Source of the DNA: a virus
IMG/VR virus record: IMGVR_UViG_3300013104_000085
Span: 1 to 20,482 of that record
Length of the DNA stretch: 20,482 nt
Reading direction: 5' to 3' (one strand)
In this document: positions 8,986 to 15,805 of the stretch, one piece after another
Layout: each line of letters begins with the position of its first letter
Numbering within the stretch: the stretch's first letter is position 1
Notes under the pieces: model-generated
Told to the model about the DNA's origin: nothing
The model's input: the letters and a program-made list of their open reading frames with translations, nothing else
The model's database searches: none
Program-made: the position numbers and the translations under genes

Positions 8986-9471
8986 ATGGCTTTTGATATT
9001 GTTGAAAAGAACAAAAACATCACTTTCCCTTTTGAATGGGTTGATTTTCCTAGTGGTGGAAAATTTAAAGTAAATGGGATTATGCAACCCGAGTTCCAAC
9101 GAGCATTAGAAATTTTTAATCAAGAAACAGCAGCGGAAGCGGCTGATCTTAATTTAATCTCGAATGATCGAATCGAAAACCGCAACGACAAATTTGCATA
9201 TGCAGTTGGTGTCTTTCTGGTGAATGACTGGAAGGGTATAGAGTTAAGTGATGGCACCTTATTAGAGTACACGCGTGAGAATGTTGAAAAGATCTTCTGC
9301 AAGTCTGCTCAAAAGACGCAATTAATTGACTTTGTGATTCAGGAAGCTACACGTATTCAAACTGAGTCATTAAAGGCTGCTAATGCTTTACTGGGAAAGT
9401 CTCAAACCTCTACGAGTGGTGCAAGTTCGGTTCAGAAGAAGAAGCGAACGACTACAGCAAAAAGCAAGTAG
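8986..9471 (+). CDS. Tail assembly chaperone, gpG-like (unshifted product)
   Basis: A 161-aa protein starting MAFDIVEKNKNITFPFEWVD, 14 bases after the tail tube gene. It corresponds to lambda gpG: it coats the tape measure protein during tail assembly and is absent from the finished tail. Residues 1-138 look folded; the last 23 residues after the shift site (SQTSTSGASS... and KKKRTTTAKSK) are low-complexity and basic, as expected for the part made only without a shift. A slippery heptamer G GGA AAG occurs in frame at 9393-9399 (codons for L-G-K, residues 136-138). Ribosomes that slip by -1 make the longer gpGT-like fusion listed next. Confidence 0.88.
   Translation: MAFDIVEKNKNITFPFEWVDFPSGGKFKVNGIMQPEFQRALEIFNQETAAEAADLNLISNDRIENRNDKFAYAVGVFLVNDWKGIELSDGTLLEYTRENVEKIFCKSAQKTQLIDFVIQEATRIQTESLKAANALLGKSQTSTSGASSVQKKKRTTTAKSK
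9393..9399 (+). promoter_or_regulatory. Programmed -1 ribosomal frameshift site (GGGAAAG)
   Basis: GGGAAAG sits in the X-XXY-YYZ phase of the G-like gene (last base of CTG, then GGA, AAG). It is identical to the slippery sequence known in lambda G-T. A -1 slip here joins the G-like frame to the open T frame, which begins at 9384 in the overlap. Confidence 0.9.
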
Positions 9472-10033: not shown

Positions 10034-10060
10034 AAAAAAGCCCGCCTAATCAGCGGGTTT
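10034..10060. terminator. Bidirectional terminator between convergent genes
   Basis: CCCGC (10041-10045), loop, GCGGG (10053-10057), flanked by A6 on the left (10034-10039) and a T-rich run on the right. The left A-run gives a full T6 tract for the minus-strand Arc-like gene, whose stop codon lies within the hairpin; the right side serves the plus-strand small gene. Confidence 0.8.
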
Positions 10061-10306
10061 ATTTGTTTCTAGTTCTTCAATTCTTGCCATAAGTTGATCA
10101 ATTAATTTCATTGATCGATTAATATTTTGTGTTGTCAGATTAAGTAGTTCAGAAAGCTCTGGTGATAGCCCCTTTTCTTCGCTAAAGCTCTCCTCAAGTC
10201 TGTATTGAGCTTCGGCATTAATTGATCGGCCACTCTCAGTTGCGGCTTGCTTAATCTTTTCCTTCAATTCCTCTGGAATACGTAGATTAAATTGAATATC
10301 AGCCAT
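10046..10306 (-). CDS. Arc-family ribbon-helix-helix repressor
   Basis: An 86-aa minus-strand protein starting MADIQFNLRIPEELKEKIKQ. It has the Arc pattern: an N-terminal beta strand (IQFNLRIP) whose Q/N/R side chains contact bases in family members, helix A (EELKEKIKQAATES), the GRSIN turn and helix B (AEAQYRLEESF). Residues 45-86 form an added coiled-coil-like tail (SELLNLTTQNINRSMKLIDQ) that could drive oligomers. It is the only minus-strand gene here and is divergent from a second ribbon-helix-helix gene at 10429. The shared 122-base gap holds palindromic operators and overlapping promoters, one of them over its own -10, so autoregulation is likely. Confidence 0.9.
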   Translation of the reverse strand: MADIQFNLRIPEELKEKIKQAATESGRSINAEAQYRLEESFSEEKGLSPELSELLNLTTQNINRSMKLIDQLMARIEELETNKPAD

Positions 10307-10336
10307 TTTTAAACAACTACATTGAAAGTTGTTAGC

Positions 10337-10365
10337 ATTATGCTATCAAAAACTCTTGACATCAA
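10337..10365 (-). promoter_or_regulatory. Minus-strand promoter of the Arc-like gene
   Basis: Read on the minus strand: TTGATG (10365-10360), 17-base spacer, CATAAT (10342-10337). Four of six and five of six consensus matches. The -10 lies inside the palindrome TAGCAT-T-ATGCTA (10333-10345). The start codon (10306) is about 30 bases further on. Confidence 0.7.
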
Positions 10366-10385
10366 TGTTAGCATACCGCTAACAT
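10356..10385 (+). promoter_or_regulatory. Plus-strand promoter of the small RHH gene and downstream operon
   Basis: A perfect -35, TTGACA (10356-10361), an 18-base spacer and TAACAT (10380-10385) as -10. The -35 overlaps the -35 of the opposing promoter, and the -10 lies in the right arm of the palindrome at 10365-10385, so the same repressor could block both. Confidence 0.7.
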
Positions 10386-10428
10386 AGCAAAACGCTAACA
10401 AATAGCGTTCAACCTAAAGGAGTAAGAG

Positions 10429-10584
10429 ATGAGTGCTGTTCAGATGAACACGCGAATGCCTGAAGAGCTTAAAGAGTTTTTATTAGAACAGGCAAAAAAA
10501 GAAGGGCGCTCTTTGAATAACTACTTAGTTAGACATTTTGAAGAGTTAAAAAAGAAGTTAACACAAGAGAGTGCGAAAGCATGA
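10429..10584 (+). CDS. Second ribbon-helix-helix DNA-binding protein (51 aa, Mnt/Arc-like)
   Basis: A 51-residue protein starting MSAVQMNTRMPEELKEFLLE and ending SAKA. It has the minimal RHH layout: strand VQMNTRMP, helix A EELKEFLLEQAKKE, turn GRSLN, helix B NYLVRHFEELKKK. It is related in plan to the Arc-like protein on the opposite strand (shared PEELKE and GRS-x-N) but differs in the strand residues that read DNA, so the pair may recognise different or overlapping sites. AAAGGAGTAAGAG precedes ATG 10429. It is the first gene of the plus-strand operon that leads to the ORF6N regulator. By analogy with P22 Arc and Mnt, it may set the level of the antirepressor-like gene. Confidence 0.82.
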   Translation: MSAVQMNTRMPEELKEFLLEQAKKEGRSLNNYLVRHFEELKKKLTQESAKA

Positions 10585-10602
10585 AATTTAACAGGCACAA
10601 AA

Positions 10603-10636
10603 AAACCTTGCCTTCCGCCAAGAATAAACAAGGTTT
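10603..10636 (+). repeat. Inverted repeat upstream of the 128-aa gene
   Basis: AAACCTTG (10603-10610) and CAAGGTTT (10629-10636), eight perfect pairs with an 18-base loop. CTTG (10607-10610) could instead pair with CAAG at 10619-10622, so two exclusive folds exist. It ends about 12 bases before the ribosome site AGAGGA and has no T-tract, so it is more like a leader control element than a terminator. Confidence 0.4.
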
Positions 10637-10662
10637 AGTTGTGTCACAGAGGACTAATAACT

Positions 10663-11049
10663 ATGGGTACTATACCATTCCAATTTAAAAGTGACAAGGT
10701 TCCAGACCTTCTAGACCTAATCACTCAAACACCAGATGCTTTATTTGAAAAAGTGGCTTGTAAACGAATTGCAGCCACAAATGAAGAAGAAAGCTTTCTT
10801 GAAAATGTAAGCAAAGCTGCTGAGAACGCTAACACACCTGTATTAATGGGAATTAGCGCAATCGGGGAATTACTTGCTCATGTAACAGATGAAGTTCGAA
10901 TAGAAGCCATTAATGATATTGGTTGGCTAATCCATTCACTAGGTATGCAAGCTAACGCAGTTTGCAAACTTAAAGAAGATGCAGAAGTTCTACTTGCTGA
11001 GAGTAGAAAAATCAAAATTGCTTCGGTTAATGGAGGGCTAATGTCATGA
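10663..11049 (+). CDS. Hypothetical protein (128 aa) upstream of antirepressor-like gene
   Basis: A 128-aa protein starting MGTIPFQFKSDKVPDLLDLI. Start 10663 is preferred because AGAGGA (10648-10653) lies nine bases upstream; an in-frame TTG at 10639 would fall upstream of that site. It is predicted mostly helical, with segments DLLDLITQTPDALFEKVACK, SFLENVSKAAENANTPVLMG and IEAINDIGWLIHSLGMQANA. The stop codon overlaps the ORF6N gene start (ATGA at 11046), so the two are coupled and possibly partners. No family recognised; no DNA-binding motif evident. Confidence 0.75.
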   Translation: MGTIPFQFKSDKVPDLLDLITQTPDALFEKVACKRIAATNEEESFLENVSKAAENANTPVLMGISAIGELLAHVTDEVRIEAINDIGWLIHSLGMQANAVCKLKEDAEVLLAESRKIKIASVNGGLMS

Positions 11050-11855
11050 ATGCAGCAGTTAACCAGTTAGTAGAAGTGGCAAATAAGCAAACAGCAATTA
11101 TTGAATATAATTCAATGCCAGTCATTACAACCGAGCAACTTGCGGATCTTTATTTCACAGAGATTATTAATATTCAGAAAAACTTTTCTAGAAATTCTGG
11201 ACGCTTTATTGAAGGTAAGCACTATTACAAGGTTGAAGGTGAAGAACTTCGAGAACTTAAAAGTACACTGACTGACTTTCAGGTAGTCAGTCCAAATGCT
11301 AGATCTTTAATGCTTTGGACGGAAAAGGGTGCAGCTCGCCATGCAAAGATTCTTGACACCGAGCAAGCATGGGAAGTTTTCGAGCAGTTGGAAGATTGTT
11401 ACTTCAATAAGAAGGAAGCATCTAAAAGTAGTTCGGCTAATGATTTAATCGCTTTGCCTAACTTCTTTGATCCTGCCGAAGCCGCTCGAGCATGGGCTGA
11501 TCAATATGAAGCAAAACAAATTGCCTGCAAAGAACGTGACCACGCAATAGAAACCAAAGCCCATATCAGCGACAAGAAAACAGCTACGGCTATGGCAACT
11601 GCTTCAGTTAAGAGTCGTCAGGCTGAGAAGTTGAAAGAGCAGATTGGCGAATCTAAGAACTATGCTTCGGTCAAAGCGGTTGAAAAGGTCGCAGGTGGCA
11701 AATACAACTGGCGCGAGCTTAAGAAATGGTGCCTAGCTCATGGCAAGAAGATTAAAGACATTGCCGATGCTAATTATGGATCTGTGAAGATTTACCATAA
11801 GGATGCATGGAAAGCCGTTTATGGAATTAATCTGACCGATTACTTTGCTGCCTAA
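11046..11855 (+). CDS. ORF6N-domain antirepressor-like regulatory protein
   Basis: A 269-aa protein starting MNAAVNQLVEVANKQTAIIE. Residues about 15-118 match the ORF6N/KilA-N-type phage regulator domain: IIEYNSMPVITTEQLADLY, IQKNFSRNSGRFIEGKHYYK, RSLMLWTEKGAARHAKILDT and AWEVFEQLEDCYF, in family order. After a basic linker (about 150-205) the C-terminal part (YASVKAVEKVAGGKYNWREL, then KKWCLAHGKKIKDIADANYG) looks like a small DNA- or protein-binding domain found on antirepressors. Such proteins relieve lysogenic repression or regulate late events. The start overlaps the preceding stop. Its position beside two RHH repressors repeats the P22 immI arrangement of arc/mnt/ant, though here it is within the tail gene cluster. 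Confidence 0.82.
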   Translation: MNAAVNQLVEVANKQTAIIEYNSMPVITTEQLADLYFTEIINIQKNFSRNSGRFIEGKHYYKVEGEELRELKSTLTDFQVVSPNARSLMLWTEKGAARHAKILDTEQAWEVFEQLEDCYFNKKEASKSSSANDLIALPNFFDPAEAARAWADQYEAKQIACKERDHAIETKAHISDKKTATAMATASVKSRQAEKLKEQIGESKNYASVKAVEKVAGGKYNWRELKKWCLAHGKKIKDIADANYGSVKIYHKDAWKAVYGINLTDYFAA

Positions 11856-11867
11856 ACTTTTAAAACC

Positions 11868-11901
11868 TATGTTATAAATACCCTCATATTTGAGGGTATT
11901 T
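11868..11901 (+). promoter_or_regulatory. Promoter-in-hairpin leader of the first lipoprotein gene
   Basis: Extended -10 TG-T-TATAAA (11870-11878) overlaps the left arm of an 11-pair perfect hairpin: AAATACCCTCA (11876-11886), TATT loop, TGAGGGTATTT (11891-11901). The right arm holds the GAGGG ribosome site; ATG follows at 11904. A transcript starting near 11885 lacks most of the left arm. The T5 after the stem could also make it a terminator. Confidence 0.55.
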
Positions 11902-11903
11902 TT

Positions 11904-12128
11904 ATGAAAAAGATTATTTTGTTGGGTCTAATGTTTGGACTCGTGGGTTGTGGCGAGTCTAAAAATAGCACAGGTAGTAATGACAATATTAGGGAGTGTG
12001 TGCAAAAAGGTGTTGCATACTATAAAGAAATAGGTTCATACCCAATGCTTAAATCAGAGAATATCTCCGCGGAAGATAAGGCTTTGCAAAAGTGTGAGAA
12101 CAGTTCAGTTGCGTTTGATTCGCTGTAG
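11904..12128 (+). CDS. Small lipoprotein (74 aa), probable lysogenic-conversion gene
   Basis: A 74-residue protein starting MKKIILLGLMFGLVGCGESK: a type II signal peptide with lipobox LVGC and lipidated Cys16. Position +2 is Gly, so outer-membrane sorting is expected rather than inner-membrane retention. The mature part is only 59 residues, with a Ser/Asn-rich linker and two further cysteines (Cys32, Cys64) that could form a disulphide in the periplasm. GAGGG at 11892-11896 lies seven bases before the ATG but is within a perfect hairpin. A lipoprotein has no role in virion structure; known prophage lipoproteins act on the cell envelope, for example in excluding other phages or in serum resistance. 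Which applies here is unknown. Confidence 0.78.
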   Translation: MKKIILLGLMFGLVGCGESKNSTGSNDNIRECVQKGVAYYKEIGSYPMLKSENISAEDKALQKCENSSVAFDSL

Positions 12129-12150
12129 TGATTAATTTTATTCAAAATTT

Positions 12151-12185
12151 TATGTTATAAATACCTTAAAAATAGGGGTATTTAT
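12151..12185 (+). promoter_or_regulatory. Promoter-in-hairpin leader of the DUF4236 gene
   Basis: The 15-base sequence TATGTTATAAATACC (12151-12165) repeats exactly that at 11868-11882. It gives TG-T-TATAAA (12153-12161) and the left arm ATAAATACC (12157-12165), which pairs perfectly with GGTATTTAT (12177-12185). The arm reaches the base before ATG 12186 and covers part of the AGGGG ribosome site (12174-12178). Confidence 0.55.
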
Positions 12186-12596
12186 ATGGGATTTAATTTT
12201 AGAAAGAGTATAAAAATAATACCTGGTGTGAAGCTAAATATAACGCAGAAAGGTATTAGTAGTGTTTCAGTTGGGAAAAATGGTGCTAGAGTCAATGTAG
12301 GGAAAAAAGGTGTGCGAACTACAGCAGGACTACCTGGTACAGGTCTTTCCTACACAACGCACAGTCCTTACAAAAAATCGGGAAAGTTTGATAAAGAGCC
12401 AAATTACCTATTAAGTCAGGAACAGGCTTCTAAAGGACAAAGAAGTATTTTAATGTCTATTCTTTTATGGATTGGAATCCTTGCTTTTCCATTTCTTTTC
12501 GCTTGGTTCACTCTACAAAAAAAATATACAAACATAGAGAGGGTTTTAGCATTTGGATGGTTGTTGTTAGTTGTCTTCGGTATGATTTCTAAATAA
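12186..12596 (+). CDS. DUF4236-domain membrane protein
   Basis: A 136-aa protein starting MGFNFRKSIKIIPGVKLNIT. Residues 1-55 are a clear DUF4236 domain: FRKSIKIIPGVKLNITQKGI, SVSVGKNGARVNVGKKGVRT and AGLPGTGLSYT. After a polar linker there are two membrane segments, about residues 88-110 (SILLWIGILAFPFLFAWFTL) and 119-134 (VLAFGWLLLVVFGMIS). DUF4236 proteins occur in chromosomes and mobile elements and have no known function. It has its own leader like that of the first lipoprotein gene and is followed nine bases later by a second lipoprotein gene, so the two are probably an operon acting at the envelope. Confidence 0.85.
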   Translation: MGFNFRKSIKIIPGVKLNITQKGISSVSVGKNGARVNVGKKGVRTTAGLPGTGLSYTTHSPYKKSGKFDKEPNYLLSQEQASKGQRSILMSILLWIGILAFPFLFAWFTLQKKYTNIERVLAFGWLLLVVFGMISK

Positions 12597-12605
12597 GGCA
12601 TTAGT

Positions 12606-12986
12606 ATGAAAAAGTTAGTTTTAATAAGCTCATTATTCTTGTTAGGCGGATGTGCTACAACTGCTAATTTCTATGAATTAACCCCTTCGCAAACAGTGAA
12701 CTATGGCTATTGGACTGGTGCACATTCGAATGTTTCAGTTGCGACCTTAAAATTAAATAAAGATGGTACGGGGGTTATTTGCCAAGACTATCAAGGTGAA
12801 GCAAAAGTACAATCGATCAAGAAAGTAGGCAATAAAGTTTATACACAAGATGGATCATTTTGGACTATTAAGGCAGAAACCAATACTAACCTTGAGCTAG
12901 CTTATGGCGCAGGGGGTAGCTACAAGCTAATTAAAGATGATCAGAAAACTAATATTACACCAGCCTGTAAGTCGAAATTGGATTAA
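12606..12986 (+). CDS. Lipoprotein (126 aa), probable conversion gene
   Basis: A 126-residue protein starting MKKLVLISSLFLLGGCATTA: signal peptide with lipobox LGGC, lipidated Cys16, Ala at +2 (outer-membrane sorting expected). The mature part is beta-rich (SNVSVATLKLNKDGTGVICQ, KVGNKVYTQDGSFWTIKAET, NLELAYGAGGSYKLIKDD), like a small lipocalin-like or META-like barrel of the kind that reports 'tested value versus reference' turns with DGTG and DGSF; this fold guess is weak. Two further cysteines, Cys59 and Cys121, could pair. AAGG (12595-12598) is seven bases before the ATG. It ends just before a strong terminator that closes accessory block B. Confidence 0.82.
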   Translation: MKKLVLISSLFLLGGCATTANFYELTPSQTVNYGYWTGAHSNVSVATLKLNKDGTGVICQDYQGEAKVQSIKKVGNKVYTQDGSFWTIKAETNTNLELAYGAGGSYKLIKDDQKTNITPACKSKLD

Positions 12987-13004: not shown

Positions 13005-13027
13005 CCCGACCAAGTGTCGGGTTTTTT
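13005..13027 (+). terminator. Rho-independent terminator before tape measure gene
   Basis: Stem CCCGAC (13005-13010), loop CAAGT, GTCGGG (13016-13021), then T6 (13022-13027); A-run on the left could extend the stem. It isolates the accessory block from the tape measure gene, which starts 25 bases later. Confidence 0.9.
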
Positions 13028-13051
13028 ATTGCCTAGAATTTGGAGAATGAA

Positions 13052-15805
13052 ATGCCTGAATCTGTAAGTCGCTTGGTTATTGTGGTCGATACCAAAGATG
13101 GAAAAAAAGAAGTTGATGCTTTAGATAAATCTCTAGGTAATGCCGAGAAACAAGGTGATAAGACCGCAAAATCAATTAAAAATGTAGGTCAAGAAACAGG
13201 TAAAACTACTGATTTATTCTCGAAATTTAAGGATCAGATTAACTCATCTTTAGGTAACACTCGCATTGGATCTGTTATTGGTGATGTTACCCAAAAAGTT
13301 ACCGCATTAAGTGGAAGTGTAGGTATCGCTGCTGCTGGGCTTGCAGGTTTAGCAGTTGGTGGTGCTGCCGTTGCATTTGCGGGTCTTTCTGCTTTGGCAA
13401 TCCAAACAGCAAAAGCAGATGCTGAAATGATTGTGTTGGCAAATCGTGCAAACACCAGCACACAGAACTTTCAGATCCTTTCCCATGCTGCTGAACAGTT
13501 AGGCATGTCACAAGATGGCTTGGCGCAATCTTTAGCAGATGCTCAAGAAAAGCTAGGCGAATTTACAGCTAGTGGGGGTGGTGGTGAAGCTGCAGATTTC
13601 TTTGATGCTTTAAAAAATAACACCAAAATGACCGATGCTGAGATTCAAAAGTTTGCGAAGACTTTGCAGGGTAAAGATGGTGTTGAAGCCCTTCAGTTAA
13701 TGAAAGATAAACTTGATAGTGTTGGGGCATCTGCTCAAGAACAGAGATTTGTGTTTGAAAGTCTAGGTAATGATTTAGGTAATTTACTCCCATTATTCGA
13801 AAATGGTGGGGCTTTACTTGATCGTTATGGTGAAGCTTTAACTGAAGCAGGCATTATCAAAAGTAAAGAAGCCATTGAACAGTCTAGACTTCTTGCAGCT
13901 CAAACAAAGTCTGTGCAAACACGTTTTGAAGGATTCAAGACACAGTTAGCATCACAAATGATGCCTGTCTTAAATTCACTACTAAGCAGCTTTTTACAAG
14001 GTGCCGAGGATGGTGGGCAATTTGGTTCAGTCATTCAGTCAGTAGGAACTATAGCCAAAGGCGTAGCAGTTGGAATTATTGGTTTAGCAAGCGCAATCCA
14101 AGTTGTAATTCGACTAATCCAAGGGTTTGTAGAGCAGGCGGCAAATGTTGGTGCTACTTACGCAAACGTAATGACTGCTGACGGTGTTGTTGCTAAAGGG
14201 CAAGCACTGGTCAATGGCTTCAAAAATGGTTGGTCTATCGCCAGTGATACTGTAAATGATTCAGTAGCCACCATTAAAGGCTCTATGAAGGCTATGAATG
14301 ATGTACTCGATGCATCGGTTCCTAAACTTGATAAGCTTGGTCAACTGTATTACGACACAAGCGGTGCAATAGACAAAACCAACAAGGGCCTTAAAACTAA
14401 CGCAAAAGAAGCAAAAGATGCAGAGAATGCAGCCAAAAAAGCGGCTGAAGCCTCTAAAAAACATGCTCAGGAACTTGAAAAAATAAGAGAAGAGCAACTT
14501 AAGATTCAATATGAATATTCTGATAAATCCAAGCAAATAGAAATGGATTTGCAGAAAGAAATTGAACGCCTTCAAAAGTACGGAATGACTCAGTTTGTAT
14601 CTGTGGCAATCCAGAAGGCTAATGATGCCAAACTCATTAGTGACGCTCAGTTAGCTTATGATCTTTATTCTTTCAAGATGAATGAACAGGAAAAGCTAAA
14701 TGCTAAGACCAAAATTGAAAGCCTTAGAATCCAAAAGAGTCGTGAATACAATGCTGATGAGAAGAAGTCTCGCTTAAAGGCTCTTAAGGAGCAATATGAT
14801 TATGAAACCAACTTAATCAATCTTGCAGCGGAGCAAAGGAAGCGCGCTTATGAGCAAACTTACACTAACTCTTTAAAGGAAATCCAACAAGCTAGAGCAC
14901 TCCTTGCGGCACCAAAATCTGAACGTGAAGGCCTTTCGACTCAATTCGGAGAAAGCAATGCAATTTCTGACAACGATAATGCGTTATTGAATGAACAGGA
15001 CAGCTTGAAGGCTAAGCTAGCCAAAACCGAAATCGACACGATTGAGTACAATCGGAGGATTGAGGAAGCTGTAAAACTCCATGAGCAAAATAAATATAAG
15101 ATCCAAGAGGAATATGCGCAGAAATATCAAGATTTGCAGAAAGGTCAATATGAATCTCAGTTGCAAATCTGGTCAAGCCTTTTAAATCAAGGTCAATCTG
15201 TATGGTCTAACTTGACTCAATCGGTAAAGGATGCGAGTGGTGAGCAATCCAAGCGATATAAAGCTATGTTTGCCATGCAGCAAGCATTTGCAATTGCATC
15301 AACGATTGTTTCTGCGCATCTGGCAGCCGCACAAACTACTGCTGATATCACTCTTCCTTTCGTGGGTAAAGTTCCAGCAGCATCGGCAATTTTAGGTTTT
15401 GGTTATGCTCAAGCCGCAATGATTGCAGCTCAAGCTATAGCTGGCTTCTCATCAGGCGGCTACACAGGCGATATGGGCCGTGGTGATGTTGCTGGTGTTG
15501 TTCATGGTCAGGAATATGTATTGAATGCCGCTGCTACTAAACGAGTCGGCGTAGATACATTGAATGCTATTAACTCAGGTCAAAGCATTGAAAAGACATC
15601 TTCAAATCAGCCTATTGTGAATATTTATAACTTACCTGGTCAAACTGCCGAGGTCACTCAAAACAGTGACGGTACTTTAGACGTTCGCATTAGACAGATT
15701 GCTAGTGATGTGGCAGAGCAGACTATGTTGGCTGGATTGAATAATCCAAACAGCCGAATCAATAAGTCTATGAAACAAAACTTTAATGTCGCTCCTAAGC
15801 GCTAA
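13052..15805 (+). CDS. Tail tape measure protein
   Basis: A 917-aa protein starting MPESVSRLVIVVDTKDGKKE, by far the expected type for the tape measure, which sets tail length and is ejected ahead of DNA. Features: alanine/glycine-rich hydrophobic segment at about residues 87-117 (VGIAAAGLAGLAVGGAAVAF); second hydrophobic region at about 333-358; long charged coiled coil at about 450-520 and again 570-710; C-terminal GFSSGGYTGDMGRG...AGVVHGQEYVL (about 799-825), a motif shared by lambda gpH-like tape measures. Start 13052 is chosen because GGAG (13042-13045) is six bases upstream; the in-frame TTG at 13040 overlaps that site. No peptidase or lysozyme domain is evident. Confidence 0.92.
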   Translation: MPESVSRLVIVVDTKDGKKEVDALDKSLGNAEKQGDKTAKSIKNVGQETGKTTDLFSKFKDQINSSLGNTRIGSVIGDVTQKVTALSGSVGIAAAGLAGLAVGGAAVAFAGLSALAIQTAKADAEMIVLANRANTSTQNFQILSHAAEQLGMSQDGLAQSLADAQEKLGEFTASGGGGEAADFFDALKNNTKMTDAEIQKFAKTLQGKDGVEALQLMKDKLDSVGASAQEQRFVFESLGNDLGNLLPLFENGGALLDRYGEALTEAGIIKSKEAIEQSRLLAAQTKSVQTRFEGFKTQLASQMMPVLNSLLSSFLQGAEDGGQFGSVIQSVGTIAKGVAVGIIGLASAIQVVIRLIQGFVEQAANVGATYANVMTADGVVAKGQALVNGFKNGWSIASDTVNDSVATIKGSMKAMNDVLDASVPKLDKLGQLYYDTSGAIDKTNKGLKTNAKEAKDAENAAKKAAEASKKHAQELEKIREEQLKIQYEYSDKSKQIEMDLQKEIERLQKYGMTQFVSVAIQKANDAKLISDAQLAYDLYSFKMNEQEKLNAKTKIESLRIQKSREYNADEKKSRLKALKEQYDYETNLINLAAEQRKRAYEQTYTNSLKEIQQARALLAAPKSEREGLSTQFGESNAISDNDNALLNEQDSLKAKLAKTEIDTIEYNRRIEEAVKLHEQNKYKIQEEYAQKYQDLQKGQYESQLQIWSSLLNQGQSVWSNLTQSVKDASGEQSKRYKAMFAMQQAFAIASTIVSAHLAAAQTTADITLPFVGKVPAASAILGFGYAQAAMIAAQAIAGFSSGGYTGDMGRGDVAGVVHGQEYVLNAAATKRVGVDTLNAINSGQSIEKTSSNQPIVNIYNLPGQTAEVTQNSDGTLDVRIRQIASDVAEQTMLAGLNNPNSRINKSMKQNFNVAPKR

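Follow-up and report, generated by a model that had tools for sequence, protein, structure and literature searches.

Promoter-bearing hairpin leaders of cargo genes in Acinetobacter phages and their predicted effect on ribosome-site access

Two hairpin leaders within a phage tail region

The window, by which we mean the whole 20,482-nucleotide stretch of viral DNA analysed here, is a stretch of head and tail genes from a tailed phage that is probably a prophage. In homologue searches, the nearest named relatives of the part that carries the cargo genes were all Acinetobacter phages and plasmids. The tail gene at 8986-9471 and the tape-measure gene flank an insert that contains, in order, Arc-like repressor genes, an ORF6N antirepressor gene, two genes that are each led by a hairpin element, a gene for a lipoprotein of the J517_1871 family, and a strong terminator (Table 1). 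For the tape-measure gene, the ATG at 13052, which has GGAG ahead of it, is a likelier start than the TTG at 13040 in the ORF list. The Arc-like repressor genes, which lie on both strands, and the antirepressor gene fill positions 10046-11855 inside the tail gene cluster, a block that resembles the immI region of P22. The third cargo gene has an ordinary, hairpin-less start (opening energies 4.0/1.9), and a search with its product matched the Cor superinfection exclusion family weakly (phrog_1119, E 0.00037). A search of Rfam returned nothing above the gathering score and only sub-threshold matches around the downstream terminator, and models of defence proteins gave one marginal match.

Table 1. 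Positions of the leader elements, neighbouring genes and terminator in the window, and of empty cassettes in other contigs
Feature	Position	Strand	Remarks
ORF6N antirepressor gene	11046-11855		within insert, upstream of element 1
Extended -10 TG-T-TATAAA, element 1	11871..11878	+	from sequence; predicted start ~A11886, hairpin loop
Hairpin 1, 11 perfect pairs, loop 4	11876..11901	+	left arm overlaps -10
Shine-Dalgarno GAGGG, element 1	11892..11896	+	inside right arm, 7 nt before ATG; predicted anti-SD duplex -6.1 kcal/mol
Cargo gene 1, 74-aa lipoprotein, phrog_32041 (unknown function)	11904..12128	+	ATG start
Extended -10 TG-T-TATAAA, element 2	12154..12161	+	from sequence; predicted start ~A12169
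Hairpin 2, 10 perfect pairs, loop 11	12156..12186	+	2 more inner pairs in fold
Shine-Dalgarno AGGGG, element 2	12174..12178	+	in and beside right arm, 7 nt before ATG; predicted anti-SD duplex -6.6 kcal/mol
Cargo gene 2, DUF4236 protein, 136 aa	12186..12596	+	Pfam PF14020, E 1.9e-21; ATG start
Cargo gene 3, J517_1871 family lipoprotein	12606..12986	+	NCBIfam NF045606
Intrinsic terminator CCCGAC-CAAGT-GTCGGG-TTTTTT	13005..13027	+	closes cargo block ahead of tape-measure gene
Empty cassettes (three other contigs)	L231:2384-2450; L357 ~10075; L298 ~4886		terminator right after ATG; 10-aa or no reading frame

An initial annotation had described a 15-base sequence shared by the two elements, a TG-N-TATAAA motif in the left arm of each hairpin and a Shine-Dalgarno sequence in the right arm, and all of these lie where it had placed them. 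The 15-mer, TATGTTATAAATACC, occurs at 11868-11882 and 12151-12165 and has no other exact copy in the window. The annotation's count of 11 pairs for hairpin 1 (AAATACCCTCA at 11876-11886 with TGAGGGTATTT at 11891-11901) was correct, whereas hairpin 2 (TATAAATACC at 12156-12165 with GGTATTTATA at 12177-12186), given as 9 pairs, has 10 perfect pairs; no U-tract follows its stem. A good -35 was not found at either window element. RNAs that contain both arms are predicted to fold at -15.5 kcal/mol (z -4.6) for element 1 and -10.8 kcal/mol (z -2.9) for element 2, and RNAs that begin at the predicted starts at -1.7 and -0.2 kcal/mol, respectively. An extended -10, a 9-bp perfect stem and a start codon are found together at two places in the window, compared with 0.0 per shuffle when both strands of 500 dinucleotide shuffles were scanned. 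Loss of ribosome-site access was compared for 24 candidate gene starts of the window. It was greatest at 11904 (11.4 kcal/mol), and 12186 ranked third (5.6); second was 10639 (6.5), a TTG that is less likely to be the true start than the ATG at 10663. The two elements had been counted as independent copies; they are probably not independent inventions, because the 15-mer is common to both and they are members of a single recurrent leader family.

A leader family ahead of diverse cargo genes

Relatives of the elements were gathered by pattern scans, homologue searches and phage records, and the loci form a pattern-selected sample in which Acinetobacter origin was judged by shared genes rather than by contig labels. 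The initial annotation had pointed to other Acinetobacter prophage accessory genes as places where the hairpin might recur, and the leader does recur in many phage contigs, as 30 distinct sequences in 47 contexts ahead of 19 cargo families in Acinetobacter phages. Two promoter types are present, TG-N-TATAAATACC...GGTATTT and TG-N-TAAATTACC...GGGTATTT. Both -10 variants (TATAAA and TAAATT) preserve one geometry, and the TAAATT type has a -35-like TTGCGC or GTGACA at a spacing of 17. With patterns that did not require it, TG was found in 9 of 10 TATAAA-type and 17 of 17 TAAATT-type Acinetobacter contexts, compared with 1 of 48 other contigs fitting the first pattern; five TAAATT matches without TG were judged to be unrelated. 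In the elements analysed, part of the extended -10 falls within the left arm, nearly all of the 30 distinct elements have an A at the predicted start, and the G-run and ATG are kept in every one.

Exact matches to the 15-mer were found in 104 stretches of viral contigs, nearly all by chance; those with a hairpin, besides the window, were limited to three Acinetobacter contigs (L076, L089 and L102) and the GIY-YIG endonuclease gene of another phage (L093). The pattern matched 69 times in genome contigs, once in Acinetobacter and otherwise in unrelated sequence. A loose pattern applied to 149 Acinetobacter genomes was uninformative, because its matches were not clearly above those of the reversed-pattern control. 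Strict patterns matched 1 of 176 and 4 of 176 genomes; of these matches, L370 and L374 appear genuine, and the others were dismissed because they lacked TG, a real stem or a gene. The chromosomal matches in L380 and L381 lie among tail genes. In a region of an Acinetobacter chromosome with no clear phage genes, two elements stand 700 bases apart (L379:8291 and 8997, minus strand). We found no prior description of such leaders in the open-access literature.

BLASTP clustering of the cargo proteins gave 20 clusters, one of which belongs to another phage, leaving 19 Acinetobacter families, and several of these are lipoproteins or exported proteins. Most elements lie between a tail gene or antirepressor gene and the tape-measure gene, and some just after the tape-measure gene; the cargo is co-oriented with the tail genes. 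Many cargo genes end in a terminator, often a strong one, and some also have one ahead. Like morons, the cargo genes have their own terminator, lie between phage genes and vary among relatives, and their promoter is recognised by sequence. Three contexts (L231, L357 and L298) are empty, the element and ATG being followed by AGCCCCGAAGGGCT-TTTTT. Several different cargo lipoproteins are alike only in their first 16-27 residues (MKKIILLGL..., for example at 11904-11951 of the window), as if leader and signal peptide were reused as one unit.

Predicted ribosome-site access and conservation of pairing

Across the 30 distinct elements, full-length RNA is predicted to fold at -5 to -16 kcal/mol, and the range is 0 to -2.5 kcal/mol when the RNA begins at the predicted start; these values apply to naked RNA rather than to co-transcriptional folding. 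The claim that read-through and local RNAs would differ in exposure of the ribosome site is supported by the predicted opening energies. In the 47 contexts, which were themselves selected for TG, the median cost of opening the ribosome site was 12.4 kcal/mol for RNA from -60 and 3.7 kcal/mol for RNA from -21, compared with 4.1 and 3.2 kcal/mol at 186 other starts in the same loci. The difference reached at least 5 kcal/mol in 85% of contexts versus 4% of controls. For long and local RNA in the window, the costs were 14.2 and 2.7 kcal/mol at element 1 and 9.6 and 4.0 kcal/mol at element 2. The exceptions that lose most of the energy difference are poorly paired (L340, the L107 lipoprotein gene and the second L370 element), and L351, L354 and L111 contain an unrepaired C-A.

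We consider it likely that the elements are self-insulating leaders of cargo ('moron') genes, in which read-through RNA would be folded shut and local RNA translated. Each would be the leader of a cargo gene placed within the tail region of a temperate phage, its left arm serving as a putative sigma70-type extended -10 promoter and its right arm bearing the Shine-Dalgarno sequence. RNA from upstream, whether from the late tail operon or from the arc and antirepressor genes, would have both arms and fold, hiding the ribosome site, whereas RNA from the local promoter would start in the loop, lack the left arm and be translated. The sequence, the conserved pairing, the recurrence, the position and the terminators are observed, and we infer the start sites, the translational block and the lysogen/lytic timing, by which the cargo's own promoter, presumably active in the lysogen, would drive its expression uncoupled from phage read-through transcription, and the cargo would be silent in lytic growth. 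Several elements have a terminator just upstream, which would cut read-through at that point unless antiterminated and counts against the model. The presence of the same cassette ahead of at least 19 cargo families suggests a reusable switch by which cargo is expressed only from its own promoter. Expression of prophage cargo apart from lytic transcription is usually explained by a promoter and terminator alone; a leader that ties promoter position to translation would, if true, add a second, compact layer on top of these, reused by genes that are unrelated, and it would provide a sequence signature for locating independently expressed cargo in Acinetobacter phages.

An unlikely alternative is that each element combines a promoter with a terminator, such that the hairpin stops incoming transcription before the cargo and its pairing with the ribosome site is incidental. 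In hairpin 1, TTTTT follows an 8-bp core (TACCCTCA/TGAGGGTA), a looser terminator scan classed this hairpin as terminator-like, a T5 run follows the stem in 20 of the 30 variants, and a Kuttervirus look-alike has been annotated as a terminator by depositors in some records. A pure terminator fits less well because the other 10 variants, including window element 2 (GGGGTATTTATATG), lack the U-tract while retaining the promoter, stem, G-run and ATG. Moreover, a consensus terminator scan flagged neither window hairpin, strong terminators are already present after the cargo, and a terminator ahead of the tape-measure gene would reduce tail gene expression unless antiterminated. Partial termination, an alternative that the initial annotation had raised for the first hairpin, may occur at the variants with T5, and termination and sequestration could act together at element 1, which is one of these.

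When the 30 elements were aligned with MAFFT, 86.5% of cells were paired, compared with 40-59% when the partner is slid by 1-3 columns. Compensatory changes between the arms, which the initial annotation had named as a sign to look for, are present, with both-side changes at 3 of 11 pairs together with U-G replacements. In a shuffle control on this 30-element alignment, the covariation score and the number of paired cells exceeded nearly all shuffles, and there was no excess in the count of both-side-changed pairs or in pair types. We regard the evidence from pairing conservation as moderate because these two counts do not beat the shuffles; moreover, the elements are related, and the covariation thus rests on few events. 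These data also bear on a reading that we judge very improbable, in which the element acts as DNA, either as an operator over the -10 to which a repressor of the phage or host would bind or as a recombination boundary, and the RNA fold is a by-product. Operators often overlap the -10, and an identical 36-bp element precedes several unrelated cargo genes; however, the letters of the inner stem vary with pairing preserved and the loop ranges from 3 to about 11, one-sided changes favour U-G, which pairs in the plus-strand RNA, over C-A (about 16 versus 8), and the G-run stands at a constant, short distance from the ATG, in keeping with a ribosome site. Also very improbable is shared ancestry alone, with promoter and leader copied along with the cargo and the hairpin having no regulatory effect: many copies are near-identical and some also share the signal-peptide start, but pairing is kept in diverged versions (right-arm TAATTT with left-arm AAATTA in L121, L363 and L157), as is the energy difference in most contexts.

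A further proposal, which we put forward tentatively and regard as somewhat doubtful, extends the self-insulating leader to a portable expression platform, a promoter-hairpin-start module with cargo swapped beside the tape-measure gene and with empty versions in existence. If so, an incoming gene would be expressed at once from its own promoter and be deaf to phage read-through.

Relation to T4-type leaders and other systems

In the leaders of T4 e, soc, 49 and I-TevI and of Aeh1 mobE, the ribosome site lies in a hairpin on long RNA started upstream, and for e and I-TevI the promoter-in-hairpin logic has been shown by experiment (PMC3014915, PMC2988022). Both the T4-type and the Acinetobacter leaders place the local promoter, a predicted one in Acinetobacter, within the 5' arm, which would be missing from RNA started there, and the core letters TATAAATA of the Acinetobacter element coincide with the T4 late promoter. 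In T4, these are gp55-dependent late promoters of a lytic phage and are linked to late-gene delay, whereas the Acinetobacter elements have a TG-extended -10 of putative sigma70 type, belong to temperate phages, lead interchangeable cargo and include the second, TAAATT type. The probable mechanism is the known logic of the T4 e type, here with a putative sigma70-type extended -10 promoter on moron genes of temperate phages.

A nearly identical hairpin that includes the Shine-Dalgarno sequence and start codon leads gene 24 of the Kuttervirus Det7, a Salmonella phage (L228, TGATTATAAATACCCCCAAAATTGGGGGTATTTTATG; opening energy 17.7 versus 8.7). Unlike the Acinetobacter leaders, it belongs to the Ackermannviridae, has no TG at the extended -10 and leads a phage gene (phrog_289/2114), and the resemblance is probably convergent. 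Lambdoid morons such as lambda lom are, as here, extra genes between phage genes with their own promoter and terminator. The hairpin is not shared by all morons: lambda lom is without one, and its opening energy is 4.1 in long RNA and 6.2 in short RNA. No usable moron start was present in the stretches of HK97 and N15 that were examined. In IS10 and IS50, read-through RNA folds over the transposase ribosome site and RNA from the element's own promoter does not. There, the end of the insertion sequence takes part in the pairing, whereas the Acinetobacter elements are without a transposase.

Look-alike hairpins on TATAAATA are also present in contigs that carry homing endonucleases and T4-like late genes (portal, head closure, head-tail adaptor and tail fibre). 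TG is absent from these, as from the Det7 hairpin, and all of them are best taken to be T4-type late promoters, and the Acinetobacter leaders therefore represent an apparent case of convergence with T4. In metagenomic T4-like contigs (L279, L287, L276, L280, L289, L292, L317, L330 and others), TATAAATACC...GGTATTT hairpins stand before late genes and GIY-YIG endonuclease genes, and hairpin-embedded late promoters seem to be common in such contigs.
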